IMG/VR virus record: IMGVR_UViG_3300010885_072008
Location: 1-20,463 of that record
Direction: 5' to 3' (one strand)
Source of the DNA: a virus
DNA length: 20,463 nt
Shown: positions 8,695 to 20,463 of the stretch, piece by piece
How the letters are laid out: each line of letters starts with the position of its first letter
How positions within the stretch are numbered: position 1 is the stretch's first letter
Notes under the pieces: generated by a model
Told to the model about the DNA's origin: nothing
The model's input: the letters and a program-made list of their open reading frames with translations, nothing else
Database searches by the model: none
Program-made: the position numbers and the translations under genes

Positions 8695-11600
8695 ATGGGA
8701 AATCGTAATGTATCATCAACTAAAATTTTAACTGACTCTGCAAGTTTTCAATTAGTGAGAACTAATCCTAAGCTTACAGGTAATGTTAAAGTTATGGTTA
8801 GTGAGTCTGATGAAATGTGGCTAGAATCAATTAAAGCTAACTCTGAATTATCAAAGGATTTATATTCAAAAGTAAGTATTGATACTGTCCAATCACATGC
8901 ATCAAATATTTTTAGATTTTTTAATAATGGTACTACTCCAAATGAAATTATCTTTGATCTTTCTGAAAAAGTAGATTCAACTAGAACATCTAAAGATTTT
9001 AAAGACCAATATGATTTTTCACACTATTTTAGCGGAGCAAAATACTTAGTTTCAAACAAGTATTCTGAAAGAATGGCTTATTTTGCTCCATTATATCTTA
9101 GAAAAGATCTTCCTTCATATTTTATTGTTCTTAAAATAACTGATCCTGCTAATTTTCCACTAGATCAAGTAAAAAAGTTATACGATGATTCTCAATCAAA
9201 AACAGATTATTTAATTGATCTTTTTAGTAAAGCATCAATCATAAAAACTTTTGATTTACGTCCTGAAACTAAAGTAGGTCAATATATTCGTAATTATGTA
9301 AATGATAAGAATTTTCCAGCAAGTCCATTAACTGTTGGCTTTGGTGAAAATGAATATACTAATTGGAATGGCGTATTAATAAATGAAGGAGCACTTGGAA
9401 GCAAAGGAGAATTATTAGAAAACTTATATACTTCATCCCAACCTTTAAAATTCTTTGAAGAAAATATTACAAATGGTTATTCTAGAAATGGAATACTTTT
9501 TCCAGATATATTAAATCTTGAATTTATTTTTAATGATGATAGTTCAGAAAAATATGATTTCAATAGATATTTAGGATTCTATGTAAACTCAATTGAATTA
9601 AGTAAATTAGATATTGATTTAGATCGTGCATATTCTAATCGTGGTACTTGGGAAAATACACCTCATTTAAGAAAACCTTTTCTAGAATCAGATGATGTTA
9701 GTATTCCGCAAGCTAATCCAAATGGTGTAATTATTCCATATAAAAACTTAGATATCAATATTTCTGAATTTAATAATATTTTTAAGGATTCAGATAATCT
9801 ATTTTTAAATTATATTAGTGATAAAGATGGTAAATTATACATACCGACTCTTAATCCTACGTCTAACACATTCAATATTGATTATACTAATCCTATCCCA
9901 ATTGCATTAAGTAATATCGGTACACTCGTTAGTGCTACTCAAGCCTCTCACGGGTATTTAACAGATGATCTAATAGTAATTACTAGTTCTGACTCTGATT
10001 ATTCTGGAGAGTTCCTAGTAACTAAAATCGATGATGATATTTTTGAATATCAAGTTAACTCTATCCCAATTAACCCTACTGCAAGTGGTACATCTCGAAA
10101 AGAACTTCGTTCAGGTAATATTCGATTTGCTAATAATAAAATAGATCTTGGATTATTCTTTGGACAGAGCCGAAACTCTTTTTTACAAGATGCAGGAACC
10201 GCTGTTAAAACTCAAGGATTATCTCATTCAGTAATTAAAATTAATTCAACTCTTAATAATTATGATGAAATTAGAATATATCATCCTCATGGAACTAGAG
10301 TAGATTTAATTGGAAAATATGATTTAATTCAAGCAGTACAAGCTCTTCCAGTATATTCGCTAATTCCTAATCCTGGAGATTATTATGTATATAATGATTA
10401 TGATAATATCTTAGGATATGATGAATTTTATATGAATGGCTCAGGTTACTTATCACAAGTAGCTAGTGCATTAGCAAATTGTATAAATGGAATTAGAAAT
10501 AGATCTTTTACTGCCTATGCATATGATGATCAAGTATTCATTAAATTAAATATTCCAGGCGAATTTGATATAGATTATAAGTTATCATTTACATCACCGA
10601 CTTTACAATATTCAGTTGTATCAATATATGGCGTTACTGGAAATTCTTTAATAAACACTCAAATTAATTTTAAAGGTGGATCTAAAGAAGTAGGGAATAG
10701 ATTAATTATTGATGCTGGTCATCTAGACAAACTTAATAATAATTTTGAATCTATTTTAATTAAATCTTCTAATAGTTATTCTAAAATTAGAAAAATATCA
10801 CAATACATTGATGATATTAATGAAGAGAATTCATTAACTCAATCATCTAGATCAAAAGCTATTAATTCATATAATACAAAGATTGCGATTGTTCTTGACG
10901 AGAATGAAACTCCAACCGTTTCGCATAATGAATTTTTAATGAGACCTAAATTTAGACCATCTATTGGTCTACTTTCTTTTTTCTCAATTAGAGATTTAGA
11001 TTTTGATTTTTATTCAAGTACATATACAAATTTTCCAGAAATAGATTTATATAACTATTACTTTATTCCTGAGGATACTAAATTACTGGAGCCAGGAATA
11101 GACTATATTGTGTATAATGGAACAATTAATGTAATCGATAGTTTAAATCCTACTGGTGTTAACTATTCTGAAGATACTCCATTTACCGTTTCTTCGCTAG
11201 TTTCATATTCAATTATAGATGGAACTCCACTAGTTACATTTTATGCGGCTGCTATACAGAATCCAATTATCCCTATCCTTGATGAAAATAAAGAACTTAG
11301 AGATTTTAGCGGTTTCTCATTATTAAAGGATCCAAGTAAAATAGTTCCTCAACGTGATGATAATGAATATAATTTAAGAACAAAATATTTAAACGGGGTA
11401 ACATATACTGAATATGATTACTATAAGGAAAATGAAAGTTTGGATTTTGCATTACGTTCAAAAATACTTCCGTATATTACTAAATGGGGAATAAAAAATG
11501 GTACTGATTCTAGAAGTAATCCATATCGTTTAAATACTGAAATTATATTTGGCCGTAATAATTTTTCACCTGATCATGTTGATGCTTCTCAAAATCCACT

Positions 11601-13996: not shown

Positions 13997-15727
13997 ATGC
14001 CAATTAGAATAAACTTAAAAGAAATTTTTCCATCTGATGCTCAGGAGATAAGTAGTGAAAAATTAAACTTCAATTTTAATAAACTCCTTGAACTAGGAAT
14101 AGGTACCTCTGGGCCAATTGGTCTAACTGGGCCAATCGGACCTCCTGGTCCAATAGGTTTAACTGGAACCCAGGGAATTCGTGGCGCTACTTGGTTTATT
14201 GATTCAAATGATCCAAATACACATACTTTTATTGGATTACTTGATGGAGATCTATATTTAGATAATATTAATTTTGATGTATGGCAATGGGATGCAAGTA
14301 CGTCTACTTGGGTATTAGAAGTAGGGATTTCAACGATTATTAATAATTATCTAATTGCAAATGGTTCACCGTTTGTTAAAACATTGGGTACTTCAACTAA
14401 ATTTATTGCGTTTGGTGTAAGAAATTCACCATCTGACTCTTTACGAGGAACTACTAATCCTTCTCTAAATAATATTTTATACTTAAATAATTTTGATGAA
14501 ACTGATCCATTAATTAATTTTCCAAGTAATACTGATGAATTATACAATTCTTTATTAAGCATTTCGGCTAATCATTCAGATAATCAGCAATCCGTTGCTG
14601 CAGATCTAGGTAGATATCATATTGAATTAAGTTCTTTATATACAGATAATAACGGGGTGTCAGCTGAATTAAGTGATATAAAACATAATTTAAAAATTAA
14701 ATTTTATAAAAATTATATTAATCCGTTAAGTAGTTACTTACCTTTAACTAATGAATGGATTAATACTGCTAAATTTTCTCTTTCTGTACCTGAAGAAAAA
14801 TCATTATTAGATATTAACCAAAATTCAATATTTAATTTTCTTACTCCAAAATGGAATAATGAATCTATTCCTTCATTTCAAGCAGAATTATCTACACTAA
14901 TTGGATCTGCTGAGTCACATGTTGAACAAGGACTTGGTTTCCAACATATCGTAGCAGACGGTATAACTTTTTCATTAACTGGTGGAACAAGCTCAATTAA
15001 TTCAACTGTTGGTCTCGCTTATAATTATAGTAGTGTATACACTCGATTAGATACTTCTAATTTAATGATGCTTGATACTAATTCAAATATTGATGGTATT
15101 CTACTTAATAATAAAACTTATGTAATCGGTAATACAAATGTAATCGGTAAAATATCAATTGGTGATATTGATCCTACTTCTGATTTAACAATATCTGGAA
15201 ATGCCTCAATTGGCTCTGGGTATGATACTATTAATGCGCCTACTAATGGTGCAATAATTGAAGGAACGGTCGGTATAGGGACAAGCTCGCCAGATGGAAG
15301 TGTTAACTTACATGTTGTCGGTAAAACTATAATGAGTGACTCACTTGATGTATATGGTTCACATACTACACATAGTTCAGTATTTAGTAAAACACGAACC
15401 ATCATTACTCGATATGATGCAACTCCTCCAATGATTGGAATAGCTGATATTGGAGTAGATCTACTTGCCACTGATCATATAGTATTTATGCGAGCACAGG
15501 ACCCTTTACTTGCAGGCTACGATAATGCAGTTGTGTTACCCTCTGCAGGTACTCCAGGTCGATCAATATGTCTTCAATTAATATCTAATACTGGAGCACC
15601 AACACTAACCATAAAAAGTGTCGCAGGTACTATAAATGGTTCAACTACATATACTTTCCCTCTTGCACTATATACAAAGCGAACGTTTATCTCTGATGGA
15701 TTCTCCAATTGGTATACTGAACCTTAA
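13997..15727 (+). CDS. Collagen-like tail fibre protein (576 aa)
   Basis: The ATG at 13997 follows the previous stop by one base. Residues 1-33 form a probable virion anchor (MPIRINLKEIFPSD, then NFNFNKLLELG). Residues 36-62 are nine consecutive Gly-X-Y triplets rich in Pro and Ile, forming a predicted collagen-like triple helix and so implying a trimer. Beta-rich shaft regions follow, with hexapeptide-like repeats near residues 375-385 (VIGNTNVIGK). Near residue 425 is the GIGTSSPDG motif, followed by LHVVGK, a common preface in tail fibres. The last about 85 residues (VVLPSAGTPGRSICLQLIS, ending in DGFSNWYTEP) fit a widespread fibre C-terminal beta domain ending in a WY pair. No peptidase S74 chaperone domain is seen after the GIGTSSP motif, although the two often occur together. 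Likely role: a host-recognition or neck/baseplate fibre. Confidence 0.85.
   Translation: MPIRINLKEIFPSDAQEISSEKLNFNFNKLLELGIGTSGPIGLTGPIGPPGPIGLTGTQGIRGATWFIDSNDPNTHTFIGLLDGDLYLDNINFDVWQWDASTSTWVLEVGISTIINNYLIANGSPFVKTLGTSTKFIAFGVRNSPSDSLRGTTNPSLNNILYLNNFDETDPLINFPSNTDELYNSLLSISANHSDNQQSVAADLGRYHIELSSLYTDNNGVSAELSDIKHNLKIKFYKNYINPLSSYLPLTNEWINTAKFSLSVPEEKSLLDINQNSIFNFLTPKWNNESIPSFQAELSTLIGSAESHVEQGLGFQHIVADGITFSLTGGTSSINSTVGLAYNYSSVYTRLDTSNLMMLDTNSNIDGILLNNKTYVIGNTNVIGKISIGDIDPTSDLTISGNASIGSGYDTINAPTNGAIIEGTVGIGTSSPDGSVNLHVVGKTIMSDSLDVYGSHTTHSSVFSKTRTIITRYDATPPMIGIADIGVDLLATDHIVFMRAQDPLLAGYDNAVVLPSAGTPGRSICLQLISNTGAPTLTIKSVAGTINGSTTYTFPLALYTKRTFISDGFSNWYTEP
14102..14182 (+). repeat. Collagen-like Gly-X-Y coding repeat, 9 triplets
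   Basis: This encodes nine uninterrupted Gly-X-Y triplets (GTS GPI GLT GPI GPP GPI GLT GTQ GIR). GPI occurs three times and GLT twice. The triplets are spelled with different synonymous codons (for example ccaatt, ccaatc and ccaata for Pro-Ile), so this is not a recent DNA-level expansion. It joins the anchor to the shaft of the fibre. Confidence 0.9.
15120..15150 (+). repeat. 13-base direct repeat within fibre gene
   Basis: ATGTAATCGGTAA occurs at 15120-15132 and again at 15138-15150, an 18-base period. It encodes the six-residue periodicity VIGNTN/VIGKIS in the fibre shaft. The near-identical DNA suggests a local duplication of one beta turn. Confidence 0.8.
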
Positions 15728-15735
15728 ATAATATC

Positions 15736-16542
15736 TCAATCCATCCATTGATTTAGGGTAAAAGGCATTAATCTTTCAGATGAAATGAGCCCATAAAGCT
15801 CACTAATTATATTTGATTCAAATTCAATGCCTTTTGCTATACCTTTATTCAATAGAATAATATCTTTAATAACATTCGCTACCATTTTTTCAGGAGGACC
15901 CTCTAAGACAGCGAAGCATACATTCTTATATTCTTTCATATTCTCTAATTCAGGCTCGTCCAGTTTATCTAATTCTATTCTAAGAGCATTCTCTTTAACT
16001 TCGTTAATCGTAACCGATTTTATTCGCTTGAATGAATATCCGAAATTTTTACGAGGGTCATCTTTTATTTTCCAGATAGAATACTTCTTATTTCCAGCAT
16101 GATTAATAACTAGAAAAATCTCAGGTTGCTCATGAATCATCTCATTTAGGTAAAAGAAATTAATATTATCTAGTATATCTAACTGAAGATCCATATAGTC
16201 CAAAATAAGATTTAAGAATACGTAATTTGCATTTCTAAATATCTCAACAACATCTGCTTTTCTAGAATAAATTTGTTTAAGCTCTCTGCTAATTTCCTTT
16301 ATTCTATCATTCCTAAAAATAGGATGCATTTTAAAATCAAATATACTTCCATCAACTGCTAAGTTATTTAAATTTAAACTATGGAAAAATATCTCATAAA
16401 AATGGTCGAGCATACCTTCCTCTAAGTCAATCTTATATTTTTGACTTGCATCAAGTAAAATATAATTAAAATATTCTGAATCTATGTAAGATCCTTTAGT
16501 TATCCAAAACGGATCCAGTATTTGTTTATTTCTCAAGACCAT
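15736..16542 (-). CDS. Hypothetical protein encoded against the structural operon (268 aa)
   Basis: This is the only - strand gene here. Its ATG is at 16542 and its TGA stop ends at 15736, 8 bases from the convergent stop of the fibre gene. It is also the only gene in the window not ending in TAA. The product looks cytosolic with no signal peptide or membrane segment. Residues 1-140 appear mainly helical and aromatic-rich (DPFWITKGSYIDSEYFNYI; FYEIFFHSLNLNNLAVDG). Residues about 140-200 look alpha/beta (EIFLVINHAGNKKYSIWKIK). The end is acidic and helical (IELDKLDEPELENMKEY). I recognise no family or catalytic motif. Its orientation suggests separate timing from the late genes, perhaps an assembly chaperone, a regulator or an acquired accessory gene. 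This is conjecture. It is preferred over the 91-codon open frame on the opposite strand because it is longer, fills the gap exactly and has a normal composition. Confidence 0.75.
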   Translation of the reverse strand: MVLRNKQILDPFWITKGSYIDSEYFNYILLDASQKYKIDLEEGMLDHFYEIFFHSLNLNNLAVDGSIFDFKMHPIFRNDRIKEISRELKQIYSRKADVVEIFRNANYVFLNLILDYMDLQLDILDNINFFYLNEMIHEQPEIFLVINHAGNKKYSIWKIKDDPRKNFGYSFKRIKSVTINEVKENALRIELDKLDEPELENMKEYKNVCFAVLEGPPEKMVANVIKDIILLNKGIAKGIEFESNIISELYGLISSERLMPFTLNQWMD

Positions 16543-16630: not shown

Positions 16631-18775
16631 ATGGCTAATACAACTGTAAAATTATTAATCGATCCTCAGAATAATTCCCTGACATTTAATCAAAATTTTA
16701 GGATATTTTCAACAGTCGATCCGATATGTGATATTCTAGAATTTACTGATTTTGTTGAAGATCTAGTTATCGAAATGCCAAATACTCTGGATTTAACTAA
16801 GCTTACTCGACAATTTAGATATTCTAGAAATAGATTAGACTGGTCACTATGGTATGTCGTTGCTCCTGGAAATTTAGGAGACGCTGCTCATATCTTCCTA
16901 GAAGACTGCACAGATTTCTACTTTGAAGTTAAGTATGAATATGATGATGGAACAAATAGCGAATTATCTACTCCGATTGAAATTAATGAAGTTAAATTGA
17001 GATTTAGACAATCTGCGCCAGTTGCAAATACCTATTCTCCTAAGTTAATATGTAGTGATGAACAGTGTACTTCAATTATTCAAAATAGGGATCCTAGTTT
17101 TAGGCCATATGCTGTAGATAGTGCAATTGGCATGTATCAAGAAATATCTTTCTTTACTAATCAATTATATGGACATCAAGTTATCTATTTTAGGACTCTT
17201 CCTGATTCAAATAGCGGAGACTATGTATTTAAAGAGTGGACTGTCTATAAAAACATAGATCGTAAGTGTATTAAAGTAATGGTAAATGGAAATGTCTTTC
17301 CGAGTAATGCACCAAAATACTCTGAATTTGGAATGGATTTTCAATTACCTTTCGAAGTTGAAATTGATCATAAATATTTTCAATCAATATTTGGAACAAG
17401 CTCTGAACCTAGAAAAAGAGATTTCCTATATTTTCCACTCTTAAATAGAATGTTTGAAATACAAGGATCTTTCTTACATAGGGGATTTATGATGGCGCCT
17501 GTCTTTTGGAAGATTCAACTTAAAAAATACAATCCAAATATCGATATGTTATTATTGGACGAAACTCGAAGTTTCCTAGATAACGTTATCCTAAGCGCAG
17601 ATCAACTTTTTAGTGAAGAAGTACTAGATGATATTAAGGATGCTACTATGCCATCACAATATAGTAAAATAAGTACAACTTTTGATTCTTCTAGAAAAGA
17701 GATTCATCCTGATATAACTCAACGACCTTTGAAATATACATTTAACTTTGCTCCTTTAATAGAAAACTATTATGATCTTAGTAATATTTCAATCATAGAT
17801 ACTATTACTAATATAACAACTGATGTGCCTATACTTGCAACAAGTCAAGAAGTCGTAAGTTTACCAAGTTTAGATAAAACTCCTGCACCAATTAATAAAG
17901 TTATCCTTGCATATCAAGGCAGTGACTTATTTACTACTTGGAAAAATGGTGGATTTGTTACTCATGATAAGAATACTAGCGGCTTATCTACTATGTATTG
18001 TAAAGTAAGAGGGCCATTTGATACAATCGAAAATCATATTGGTACCAGTGGATCGGGTCGATATATTAGAATTGAAGCATATCGAAATATTGCATTAACT
18101 GATCAAAGAGATATCTTAATTGATACTTCAGGAGCGGTTGATACTGCAAGTTTTAAATTACGAGAATCTGCAATTATCTATACTGCTCTTCCTAAGTTTA
18201 ATGATACTACTAATAGGAATCTATCATTTACATGCCTATTTAATGTGCCAAGTACTTCTGAATCAATTAGTTTTATTGATGGATATGAAGATGATACCCA
18301 AGCTGGAATTAGGATATCTGCTATATTCAATCGATATAATTCAACTGCGCCTGAGGGAGACTTAACTATTACAGTAAAGATAAATTCACAAGTTAAAAAC
18401 TATATTATTAATAATTTTATTAGTGGAGTATGGCACGCTATTATAATTTCAGCATCAAATGAATTTAAGCAATGTGGAGCATATGTATATCAGATAAAAG
18501 ATGATCCTAGTGATATTATAAATCATACTAATTTTATTAGAGTCTTGGCTACATCTTCATCATTTACACAAGATTCATTTGACCTTACTCAAAATTATAG
18601 ATTACCTAGTTCTAAATTATTAATTACTAATCTTCGAATCTTTAATACTATGCTAAGAGAAGAGGAACATGATTTTATCCTAAGTCAACAGTTCTTAAAG
18701 GACGAATCAATGTTAGTCTTAATTGATAATTGTAGACCTCAAATTAATTTACCATATATCGCTAAAAACAGATAA
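16631..18775 (+). CDS. Virion structural protein with C-terminal LamG/concanavalin-like segment (714 aa)
   Basis: The ATG at 16631 follows the divergent promoter region, so this is the first gene of the next + strand unit. Residues 1-130 are beta-rich (KLLIDPQNNSLTFNQNFRIF) and include FRYSRNRLDWSLWYVV, which looks like an Ig-like or baseplate-docking domain. Residues about 260-303 hold FLYFPLLNRMFEIQGSFLHR and a following MAPVFWKIQLKKY, which I remember as a conserved stretch in large-phage structural proteins without a known function. Residues about 506-686 fit a LamG/concanavalin-like jelly roll: GVWHAIIISASNEF corresponds to the usual 'W-H-v-a' strand, and ITNLRIFNTMLREEEHDFI to the usual final strand and helix. 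That fold often binds glycans. The gene ends 4 bases before the gp15-like gene. A tail or baseplate protein with a possible carbohydrate-binding tip is likely. Confidence 0.75.
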   Translation: MANTTVKLLIDPQNNSLTFNQNFRIFSTVDPICDILEFTDFVEDLVIEMPNTLDLTKLTRQFRYSRNRLDWSLWYVVAPGNLGDAAHIFLEDCTDFYFEVKYEYDDGTNSELSTPIEINEVKLRFRQSAPVANTYSPKLICSDEQCTSIIQNRDPSFRPYAVDSAIGMYQEISFFTNQLYGHQVIYFRTLPDSNSGDYVFKEWTVYKNIDRKCIKVMVNGNVFPSNAPKYSEFGMDFQLPFEVEIDHKYFQSIFGTSSEPRKRDFLYFPLLNRMFEIQGSFLHRGFMMAPVFWKIQLKKYNPNIDMLLLDETRSFLDNVILSADQLFSEEVLDDIKDATMPSQYSKISTTFDSSRKEIHPDITQRPLKYTFNFAPLIENYYDLSNISIIDTITNITTDVPILATSQEVVSLPSLDKTPAPINKVILAYQGSDLFTTWKNGGFVTHDKNTSGLSTMYCKVRGPFDTIENHIGTSGSGRYIRIEAYRNIALTDQRDILIDTSGAVDTASFKLRESAIIYTALPKFNDTTNRNLSFTCLFNVPSTSESISFIDGYEDDTQAGIRISAIFNRYNSTAPEGDLTITVKINSQVKNYIINNFISGVWHAIIISASNEFKQCGAYVYQIKDDPSDIINHTNFIRVLATSSSFTQDSFDLTQNYRLPSSKLLITNLRIFNTMLREEEHDFILSQQFLKDESMLVLIDNCRPQINLPYIAKNR

Positions 18776-19574: not shown

Positions 19575-20150
19575 ATGAAAACACGAATAACAAGTTTTAG
19601 TCAATTTATAGGTGAAGGCAAGATTTCCGAAAATCTTAAATATCATATAGATAATAATAATAGTATTGCTGAATCAGTATTTAGACCTGGTTCAAATGCT
19701 CACATTATATTATTATGCGAAGCTCGAGATAGATTTTATGATGGGTATTTAGAATTAGGGAGATTAGACAAGCAATTATTTGAATCAACTGATCTTGGAT
19801 TAACTGATTATTTCAATGGAGAAGTAGTTCCACTTGATCTTCCATTAGAAGAGTTAGAGATATTTGAAGAGGCTGATGTTAAATTAAACTATCCTCGGCG
19901 TGGAGGAAAAAAGACGAAGTATCATGTGTATGTAAAGAATCCTAAAACTGGAAGAGTAATGAAGATTGCTTTTGGAGATGTACATGGTGGATTAACTGCA
20001 AAAGTAAGTGATCCTAACGCTAGAAAATCATTTGCTGCTAGACATAACTGCGCTGAGAAAAAAGATCGAACTGCTGCTGGTTATTGGGCATGTAGAATAA
20101 ATCGATATGCTCATCTTTGGGGCGGAAAAACTTATCCTGGATTTTGGTAA
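19575..20150 (+). CDS. Putative head-associated protein with capsid-targeting-like leader and basic C-terminal domain (191 aa)
   Basis: The ATG at 19575 lies 9 bases after the previous stop. The N-terminus (MKTRITSFSQFIGEGK) resembles the capsid-targeting leaders of T4 internal and scaffold proteins (MKTYQEFIAEA). It contains I-G-E|G at 12-15, fitting the gp21 prohead-protease consensus (L/I)-X-E|(G/A). A second fit, L-C-E|A, is at 47-50. Residues 85-101 are acidic. Residues 106-191 form a basic domain beginning YPRRGGKKTKYHVYVKNP. They include KIAFGDVHGGLTAKV, RHNC (156-159) and YWACR (170-174), and end in PGFW. I recall this domain from many T4-like marine and jumbo phages, always without a firm function. 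The conserved His and two Cys could bind metal. A plausible reading is an acidic propeptide removed during head maturation to release a DNA-binding basic domain. The stop codon overlaps the next start (TAATG). Confidence 0.65.
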   Translation: MKTRITSFSQFIGEGKISENLKYHIDNNNSIAESVFRPGSNAHIILLCEARDRFYDGYLELGRLDKQLFESTDLGLTDYFNGEVVPLDLPLEELEIFEEADVKLNYPRRGGKKTKYHVYVKNPKTGRVMKIAFGDVHGGLTAKVSDPNARKSFAARHNCAEKKDRTAAGYWACRINRYAHLWGGKTYPGFW

Positions 20151-20463
20151 TGAAATATTTAATGACATATAGAGTATTTGAAGCTACTCAACATGAGACT
20201 AACAAAGATTTGCCGAGTATTAGCGAATTAACGATAGTATCAATTAAAACAATTGAGGGTAAAAATAAATGGGACTACCCAAAGGACAAGCTTGTACATA
20301 TGGTGTTTGATTTAGGTGAATGGGAAGAATTTTCATCAGCAAATATTCCTAAGTTCTATGAAAATATCAAAAAATATCTTCCTTCAATGGATGCACATCG
20401 ATGTTCAGTAGGAAGAAGAGGAGGATTCTTTTCAAGAGTAAAAGGAGGAACTTGGTTAGGCCA
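20150..20463 (+). CDS. Cyanophycin synthetase N-terminal-domain-like protein, 3'-truncated by window edge
   Basis: The ATG at 20150 overlaps the previous stop by one base. 104 codons are visible and the frame is open at the window end. Residues about 27-104 follow the N-terminal domain of cyanophycin synthetase (CphA) as I remember it. They show G-x-N-x-W at 37-41, KLVHMVFDLGE at 47-57 and IPKFYE at 66-71. LPSMDAHRCS at 77-86 and RRGGFFSRV at 89-97 come next, with GGTWLG at 99-104 just where CphA has a G-T-(Y/W)-(M/L)-G-H motif. In CphA this domain binds the growing Asp-Arg polymer; the ATP-grasp and Mur-ligase-like domains that follow it do the ligation. Whether this phage protein has those domains cannot be seen. 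The first 12 residues (MKYLMTYRVFEA) precede the homologous region and resemble a T4-type leader. The domain match is strong; the function is unknown. Confidence 0.8.
   Translation, partial: MKYLMTYRVFEATQHETNKDLPSISELTIVSIKTIEGKNKWDYPKDKLVHMVFDLGEWEEFSSANIPKFYENIKKYLPSMDAHRCSVGRRGGFFSRVKGGTWLG

Follow-up and report, generated by a model that had tools for sequence, protein, structure and literature searches.

A gene cut off at the right end of a 20,463-base phage contig (here the window, meaning the whole stretch of DNA analysed) encodes the N domain of cyanophycin synthetase 1 (CphA1), and in related phages this domain is a complete, free-standing protein. Sequence comparison and a structure model indicate that the metallopeptidase-like centre of the domain, Cx19HxxEH, is retained. 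In the lineage of the window, the domain is preceded by a short tag that recurs at the starts of many other genes. We propose, giving the idea about an even chance of being correct, that the protein is an endo-cyanophycinase packed into the phage head and injected against host cyanophycin; its packaging, activity and substrate are what we infer from the comparisons below.

A free-standing CphA1-type N domain

The features of the window that matter here, all on the plus strand, are the following.

16631..18775 (+): neck / head closure Hc2-like protein (phrog_679, 1.2e-6; PF11649 below cut-off)
19575..20150 (+): upstream gene, 191 residues, of the function-unknown family phrog_7595; starts with tag A
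19575..19616 (+): tag A of the upstream gene (MKTRITSFSQFIGE), assigned by start pattern; also at L007 5423, G012 10007 and G017 132140
20150..20463 (+): stand-alone CphA1-type N-domain gene, 5' part, 104 codons, from PF18921 and its completion in L002
20150..20182 (+): tag A, MKYLMTYRVFE, a proposed capsid-targeting sequence with a proposed cut after E11, from the enriched start pattern and likeness to T4 ipIII
20234..20461 (+): window part (residues 29-104) of the CphA N-domain fold proper, from the 7lg5 alignment and the model
20396..20404 (+): codons of H83 and C85, equivalent to H57 and the metal ligand C59 of SuCphA1

The frame opens at an ATG (20150) and meets no stop up to the contig end (20461). 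A first-pass annotation, made from the letters alone, had recognised a CphA N domain here by its signature motifs, and these are indeed present (KLVHMVFDL, IPKFYE, LPSMDAHRCS, RRGGFFSRV and GTWLG). The Pfam search it called for matched PF18921 at 54.9 bits with the fragment (cut-off 27, E 1.1e-14; profile positions 2-55 of 115 only), a score that rules out chance as the source of the motif matches. The complete gene in the relative L002 (6001-6546) has 181 codons, shares 104 of 104 residues with the window frame and matches PF18921 at 141 bits (cut-off 27, E 2e-41; profile positions 2-114 of 115), and the profile scored above its cut-off in 10 of 10 records.

The full L002 protein has no second Pfam domain, and neither an ATP-grasp nor a Mur domain. 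In the relatives the stop comes just past the N domain, leaving a protein of 181 residues that lacks what defines the whole enzyme, namely the ATP-grasp G domain and the Mur-ligase-like M domain of cyanophycin synthetase 1. Because the record ends at 20,463 bases, relatives supplied both the stop and the HxxEH half. The earlier conjecture of a stand-alone domain detached from its enzyme is thereby borne out, the downstream part having been read in relatives. The ligating role suggested alongside it finds no support in a protein that lacks both ATP-grasp and Mur domains; a search made for Mur_ligase_M alone found it in 0 of nine phage records.

Residues 29-167 align to residues 3-141 of Synechocystis CphA1 (7lg5) without a gap (139 residues, E 1.9e-33). 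An AlphaFold model of the phage protein (pLDDT 90.2, pTM 0.85), in which residues 7-18 are of low confidence and poorly ordered, superposes on the Synechocystis and Trichodesmium CphA1 chains at an rmsd of 1.0-1.4 A with 41-42% identity (Foldseek E 2.7e-14; TMq 0.81-0.83 to the first seven CphA1 chains), and so passes the superposition that the annotation had proposed as a check. The fit is poorer to the T. morbirosei and A. baylyi enzymes (7lgn and 7lgm, 3.3-4.6 A), and also to CphA2. The phage protein thus shares its predicted fold and catalytic residues with the CphA1 N domain (PF18921; PDB 7lg5, 7txv, 7wac), but where that domain is part of a ligase of about 880 residues, the phage copy stands free and carries additions of its own, a tagged 26-residue N-terminus in clade A and tagged C-terminal parts in clades B and C.

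Sharon et al. 2022 (PMC9262961) describe a zinc metallopeptidase-like centre hidden in the N domain, Cx19HxxEH with H57, F67, R70 and E87 around it, that cuts cyanophycin into primers. According to the same paper, the isolated SuCphA1 N domain supplied in trans permits primer-independent synthesis, cyanophycin oligomers are cleaved by SuCphA1 and not by its E82Q form, and the native N domain is slow. Phage residues H83, C85, F93, R96, H105, E108, H109 and E113 correspond to SuCphA1 H57, C59, F67, R70, H79, E82, H83 and E87; only the first four lie inside the window, and the HxxEH half, beyond the contig end, is seen in L002. All 21 viral loci, near-copies among them, and all 80 bacterial loci have the full set (Cx19HxxEH plus the equivalents of H57, F67, R70 and E87). 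In eight aligned phage rows the centre is kept together with the equivalents of R70, S60, T101 and Y110, which contact cyanophycin, while SuCphA1 E90, another polymer contact, is Thr both in the phage and in the aligned bacterial rows. The gene is under purifying selection, with dN below dS in all eight pairs tried (for L002 and L007, 0.16 against 1.55). From these residues, the phage protein is probably an enzyme. The first-pass idea of a polymer- or peptide-binding module survives as regards the detached domain and falls short as regards a purely passive binder, since no residue of the published metallopeptidase centre has been lost.

By comparison with PMC9262961, the HxxEH metal motif is common to the phage protein and the inverzincins (M16 peptidases), and the C-H-H ligand set to the phage protein and peptide deformylase. 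Unlike either, the phage protein has a small CphA-type fold with the Cys ligand upstream of the histidines, and falls outside M16. The proposed substrate is that of the cyanophycinase CphB (Peptidase_S51), but the family differs, the phage protein matching only PF18921. CphB and other cyanophycin-degrading enzymes of its kind are exo-enzymes, in contrast to the cut inside the chain that we propose for the phage protein. We found no earlier report of a phage-encoded CphA N domain among the printed papers listed by our searches (preprints lay outside the scope).

Phage relatives, gene neighbourhood and origin

The scan of viral contigs returned L002, with the same 104-residue start, and nine further relatives, and wider alignments, in which 21 of 39 matched stretches were confirmed, enlarged the set to 21 viral loci. 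All 12 phage rows in a tree of 94 N domains fall into a single clade (100/100), set off by a long stem of 1.37 changes per column and divided into three subclades: A, with 13 viral loci and the window, and B and C, with four loci each. The sister group of this clade is weakly supported (93/66). The N domain was probably acquired once by large T4-like phages, which make up the single clade observed, from a presumed CphA1 donor. The best 80 of 319 bacterial loci are all named as Bacteroidota except three records (one Williamsia, two Algicola). In the same 80, 74 are stop-ended frames of 572-951 codons, most near 880, and six are open at a contig end; no stand-alone bacterial N domain occurs among them. 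A Bacteroidota donor is likely, and we put it no higher because the peptide patterns of the bacterial scan resembled the phage sequence, which favoured phage-like residues, and because the phage sister group is weak.

The full protein had no match at E up to 1 among 50,697 phage records, and the gene was found in no isolate. The window fragment hit a Vibrio tail tubular protein in the phage collection at E 0.1, which we take as chance. A large virion protein of the window is shared by 31 phage records, whose named hosts are Prevotella, Tenacibaculum, Chryseobacterium, Flavobacterium and Sphingomonas, the last represented by two records of one phage. Judged by their genes, the carriers are large T4-like phages whose relatives mostly infect Bacteroidota. 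The MCP, searched with PF07068 and phrog_138, is clear in G011 and G013 and broken and weak in G010, where a gp23-like match (L018, G010:132991-135781) is crossed by a TAA and spread over three ORFs; an intron, a frameshift or an assembly fault is possible. Pfam and PHROG scans of candidate head genes in G006 and G010 found no head gene and left many candidates with no match at all, while matching a terminase, DNA polymerase, helicase, ligase, an endolysin-like protein and a tape-measure-like protein. The right end of G006 (112000-136739) consists of short genes in a style unlike the rest, possibly another type of region or a chimera.

Within the window, the phage structural cluster named by the annotation is upheld by the ORF of the T4 neck / head closure Hc2 type, which scored 22.6 bits against PF11649 (cut-off 25, 7.9e-5). 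This predicted Hc2-like gene places the CphA-N gene in a T4-like virion gene cluster. The stop of the gene directly upstream overlaps the CphA-N start as TAATG, which makes the proposed translational coupling plausible. The description of that neighbour as a putative head protein does not stand, its one match being to phrog_7595, a family of unknown function (7.3e-11; computed for the window copy only). Look-alikes of this neighbour, judged by eye, lie at L007 5423-6001, G012 10007-10588 and G017 132140-132712; together with the window copy, they start with tag A in four lineages and sit directly 5' of the CphA N domain in three, and elsewhere in G017.

Other genes recur around these loci. A gene of 84-89 residues with a WHRDxxDR motif follows the CphA N domain in three loci (L002 6543-6797, L007 6543-6809, L048 482-751), and a look-alike occupies another place in G010 (G010:23884-24150); the L002 copy has no Pfam match. 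In both the window (15736-16542) and G006 (G006:41224-42030), the neck gene is immediately preceded by a minus-strand gene that encodes 268 residues; the two look similar by eye, and the window copy matched nothing in Pfam above its cut-off. Window positions 13997-15727 encode a probable fibre protein with a collagen-like GPxG stretch near its N-terminus (PF01391 below cut-off).

Recurrent tags and a repeat-bearing protease-scaffold

In clade A the domain is preceded by an extension of about 26 residues that opens with MKYLMTYRVFE. The seven aligned rows that include an N-terminus all have Y7, F10 and E11, and differ in the sequence and length of the linker that follows. The ipIII protein in the T4 record starts MKTYQEFIAEA, with the same aromatic spacing followed by E. 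The review PMC9026906 reports that the first ten residues of ipIII suffice for head packing, that fusions carry foreign proteins into the host, and that residues 4 and 7 of the T4 capsid-targeting sequence serve targeting while 8 and 10 serve processing; PMC5694885 and PMC3012670 likewise give the T4 sequence a capsid-targeting role. From the shared pattern, which is observed, and its likeness to T4, tag A would be a capsid-targeting sequence.

We defined strict tag A as [FY]..[FYW].{0,3}E, that is, two aromatics three apart and an E within the next four residues, and counted it at the starts of genes called by a simple script (at least 80 residues for counts). The pieces of G011-G017 had little or no overlap, so that border genes are cut, and the counts for G011 and G014 omit the last 1,265 and 391 bases, respectively. 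The 436-kb record G011 has the tag on 53 of 458 genes (shuffled starts 9.2+-2.8), G010 on 31 of 263 (5.3+-2.3) and G017 on 15 of 197 (2.9+-1.7). In G006 the strict form occurs on only 7 of 139 genes (2.6 by chance) and a looser form on 17 of 139 (3.6+-1.8), and in the window 2 of 11 genes carry tag A. The T4 stretch has the pattern on 2 of 52 genes, ipIII and one other, against 0.9 by chance, and ipI is missed. Samples of two further genomes gave 6 of 100 (LR745206; 1.7+-1.2, inside the shuffle range) and 9 of 90 (LR756500; 2.7+-1.6, an excess). Flavobacterium phage MaF61 showed no excess (1 of 148; 1.5+-1.2), and 50-kb samples of PAU and PTm1 gave 1 of 54 (0.4+-0.7) and 2 of 53 (0.4+-0.6). 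By the counts for these last three, the tag seems not to be a general trait of Bacteroidota phages. We found no earlier report of tags of this kind among the printed papers listed by our searches.

The bodies behind the tags are unlike one another, with a mean column identity of 6%. For the 51 of 53 strict-tag proteins of G011 with at least 100 residues, Pfam gave nine families with one member each, and PHROGs gave eight. Thymidylate synthase and a GIY-YIG protein in this set are probably chance tag matches, in keeping with the nine or so expected by chance. Two positions ahead of the tag's E, 55 of 84 tags have I, L, V, M or F, compared with 31% of other glutamates, an excess that the pattern itself partly forces (16 of the 55 are F). 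The codons at this E are GAA 69 times and GAG 15 times. A mere start signal at the DNA level is unlikely, because the codons vary and because in the sister lineages the tags are internal or C-terminal.

In clade B, tag A shows no excess (G013, G014, G016), and a second tag recurs at gene starts: on 19 of 108 genes in G014 (shuffles 0.6), 7 of 87 in G013 and 7 of 103 in G016 (0.4 each). Its forms MKRIIRLTESDLTRIVRRVI, MKHLIRKILKEE or MNLQESIRRILREE appear on many genes of L171-L174 (G014) and L148-L152 (G013), and two genes that bear it (56725 and 57778) lie between the G013 protease and capsid genes, the place of the T4 core genes. In a search of the first 30 residues, IRRIL[RK]E was found in 7 of 98 G013 proteins, 2 of 116 G014 proteins and 0 of 125 G016 proteins. 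The CphA-N proteins of all three records carry ESIRRIL[RN]E right behind the domain, followed by bodies that are mutually unlike. The clade C protein of G017 has its tag at the very end (...MSYQEFVEAHKKFTNK): of 197 G017 proteins, it is the only one in which the final 22 residues contain [FY]..[FY][ILVMF].?E. That the tag may act as an address is hinted at most strongly by its varying position among the clades: the same domain meets a tag in front, behind or at the far end, which argues for an address over a detail of gene starts.

What such an address might bind is suggested by the prohead protease. A gp21-type protease, searched with phrog_207 (chosen via T4 gp21), was detected in three of nine records, one of each clade (G011 6.9e-33, G013 2.1e-45, G017 1.4e-36), and not in the fragments G006, G010, G012, G014, G015 and G016. 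The alternative probe PF03420 matched none of five records and was silent in the control genomes too, so it is not read as absence. In L055 (G011:269288-271387), L205 (23624-25669) and G017:55509-57485, the protease is fused to a scaffold of 14-residue repeats. The second half of the 699-residue G011 fusion holds 11 copies of the core YSEY[IL]AE or of a close variant, mostly in a 14-residue tandem period, and the capsid protein gene directly follows. The G017 protease has eight strict motifs and further degenerate copies, and the huge phage LR745206 (634,780 bases) has 11. In LR756500 the repeats are degenerate, with two strict motifs, despite its tag excess, and MaF61 has an annotated scaffold without the motif and no tag excess. 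Proteins with at least three scaffold motifs were sought elsewhere: G006, G010 and the window have none, and in G011-G014 and G016 there is one other, a 269-residue G011 protein with three.

Many other proteins of these phages bear N-terminal tags that match the core of the scaffold repeats. In the few phages concerned, this link between repeats and tags is suggestive, and it is possible that the match reflects a general packaging code. A gp21-type protease is found in T4 and in three of these records. IPIII shares with tag A the aromatic pair three apart and then E, though by a loose pattern that admits chance matches, and IPI has the aromatic pair with the E farther away. In contrast to the T4 internal proteins, the candidate cargo here is an enzyme domain of bacterial origin, and the tag pattern is on dozens of genes, not a few.

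Cyanophycin as a proposed target at infection

Among the best 80 of 319 bacterial CphA loci, regular expressions found a cyanophycinase-like ORF in the flank of 76 and an isoaspartyl-peptidase-like ORF near cphA in 61; in L064, Pfam places both beside cphA (PF03575 6.8e-23, PF01112 2.3e-114). Peptidase_S51, like Mur_ligase_M, was absent from the nine phage records while the control genomes gave matches, so full degradation of the polymer must lean on the host. Use of host cyanophycin is judged here from relatives rather than from the phages' own hosts. The slowness of the native domain speaks against much nitrogen being gained, unless the free protein works faster. Delivery itself is plausible, since head proteins of phiKZ are co-injected according to a jumbo-phage review (PMC13282480).

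We suggest that these phages joined their own capsid-targeting tag to an acquired CphA1 N domain. If T4 internal proteins are a guide, the tag would attach during head assembly to the protease-scaffold with its tandem repeats of the same motif, and the gp21-type protease would cut behind the tag's glutamate. The freed domain would remain in the head, enter the next host along with the DNA and cut stored or growing cyanophycin into short chains, which host cyanophycinase and isoaspartyl peptidase would finish to Arg and Asp for the phage. Tapping host cyanophycin and acting from within the virion, both among the uses floated in the first-pass annotation, appear the best to propose. A broader reading, which we hold tentatively and at somewhat under even chances, is that large T4-like Bacteroidota phages use a modular address code. 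The tag, which the tandem repeats of the fused protease-scaffold would have donated or received, would direct dozens of unrelated proteins to the head, whether it sits at one end of the chain or inside it, and among these passengers would be a stolen bacterial domain that is injected so that the host's nitrogen-storage polymer is cut as soon as infection begins.

The catalytic evidence would be identical if the endo-cyanophycinase were made and used in the same infected cell, as an auxiliary metabolic enzyme whose tag is not a capsid address. A site among virion genes is no proof of packaging, the tagged sets probably include chance matches (thymidylate synthase, for example), and some records show the pattern only weakly. 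This explanation nonetheless seems unlikely to us, as it leaves aside a tag that has the spacing of T4 ipIII and matches the scaffold repeats, the variable linker after it with low model confidence at residues 7-18, and its placement behind the domain in clade B and at the C-terminus in clade C.

The protein may instead be a packaged or injected zinc peptidase with another substrate, acidic head-core peptides or host peptides, for which cyanophycin cleavage is ancestral only. The backbone that the enzyme cuts is poly-Asp (PMC9262961), T4 core protein gp67 and the G011 protease-scaffold contain very acidic stretches, and the nine phage records encode neither Peptidase_S51 nor Mur_ligase_M; the long phage stem and the loss of E90 leave room for a new substrate. 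Against this, the Thr at E90 is common to the aligned bacterial rows, and the centre and the cyanophycin-contacting equivalents are kept in the aligned phage rows, and we consider a changed substrate quite unlikely. Improbable, in our judgement, is a non-catalytic decoy that binds cyanophycin chains or host CphA1 protomers and so spares Arg, Asp and ATP. The N domain of CphA1 also anchors the growing chain, according to PMC9262961, and a free N domain could compete for that role; yet a pure binder has no need of the catalytic residues, every one of which is present in 21 of 21 viral loci, when by the same account CphA1s themselves have the full motif in only 83% of cases and TmCphA1 lacks it.

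If the head-packed endo-cyanophycinase is real, it would be a natural free-standing form of the cryptic third active site of cyanophycin synthetase, and a free-standing N domain would open this hydrolase to study apart from the polymerase. It would also mean that viruses attack a bacterial nitrogen store by protein delivery and not by gene expression alone. The tag and the scaffold repeats would then together provide a rule by which the packaged proteome of very large uncultured phages could be predicted from sequence.
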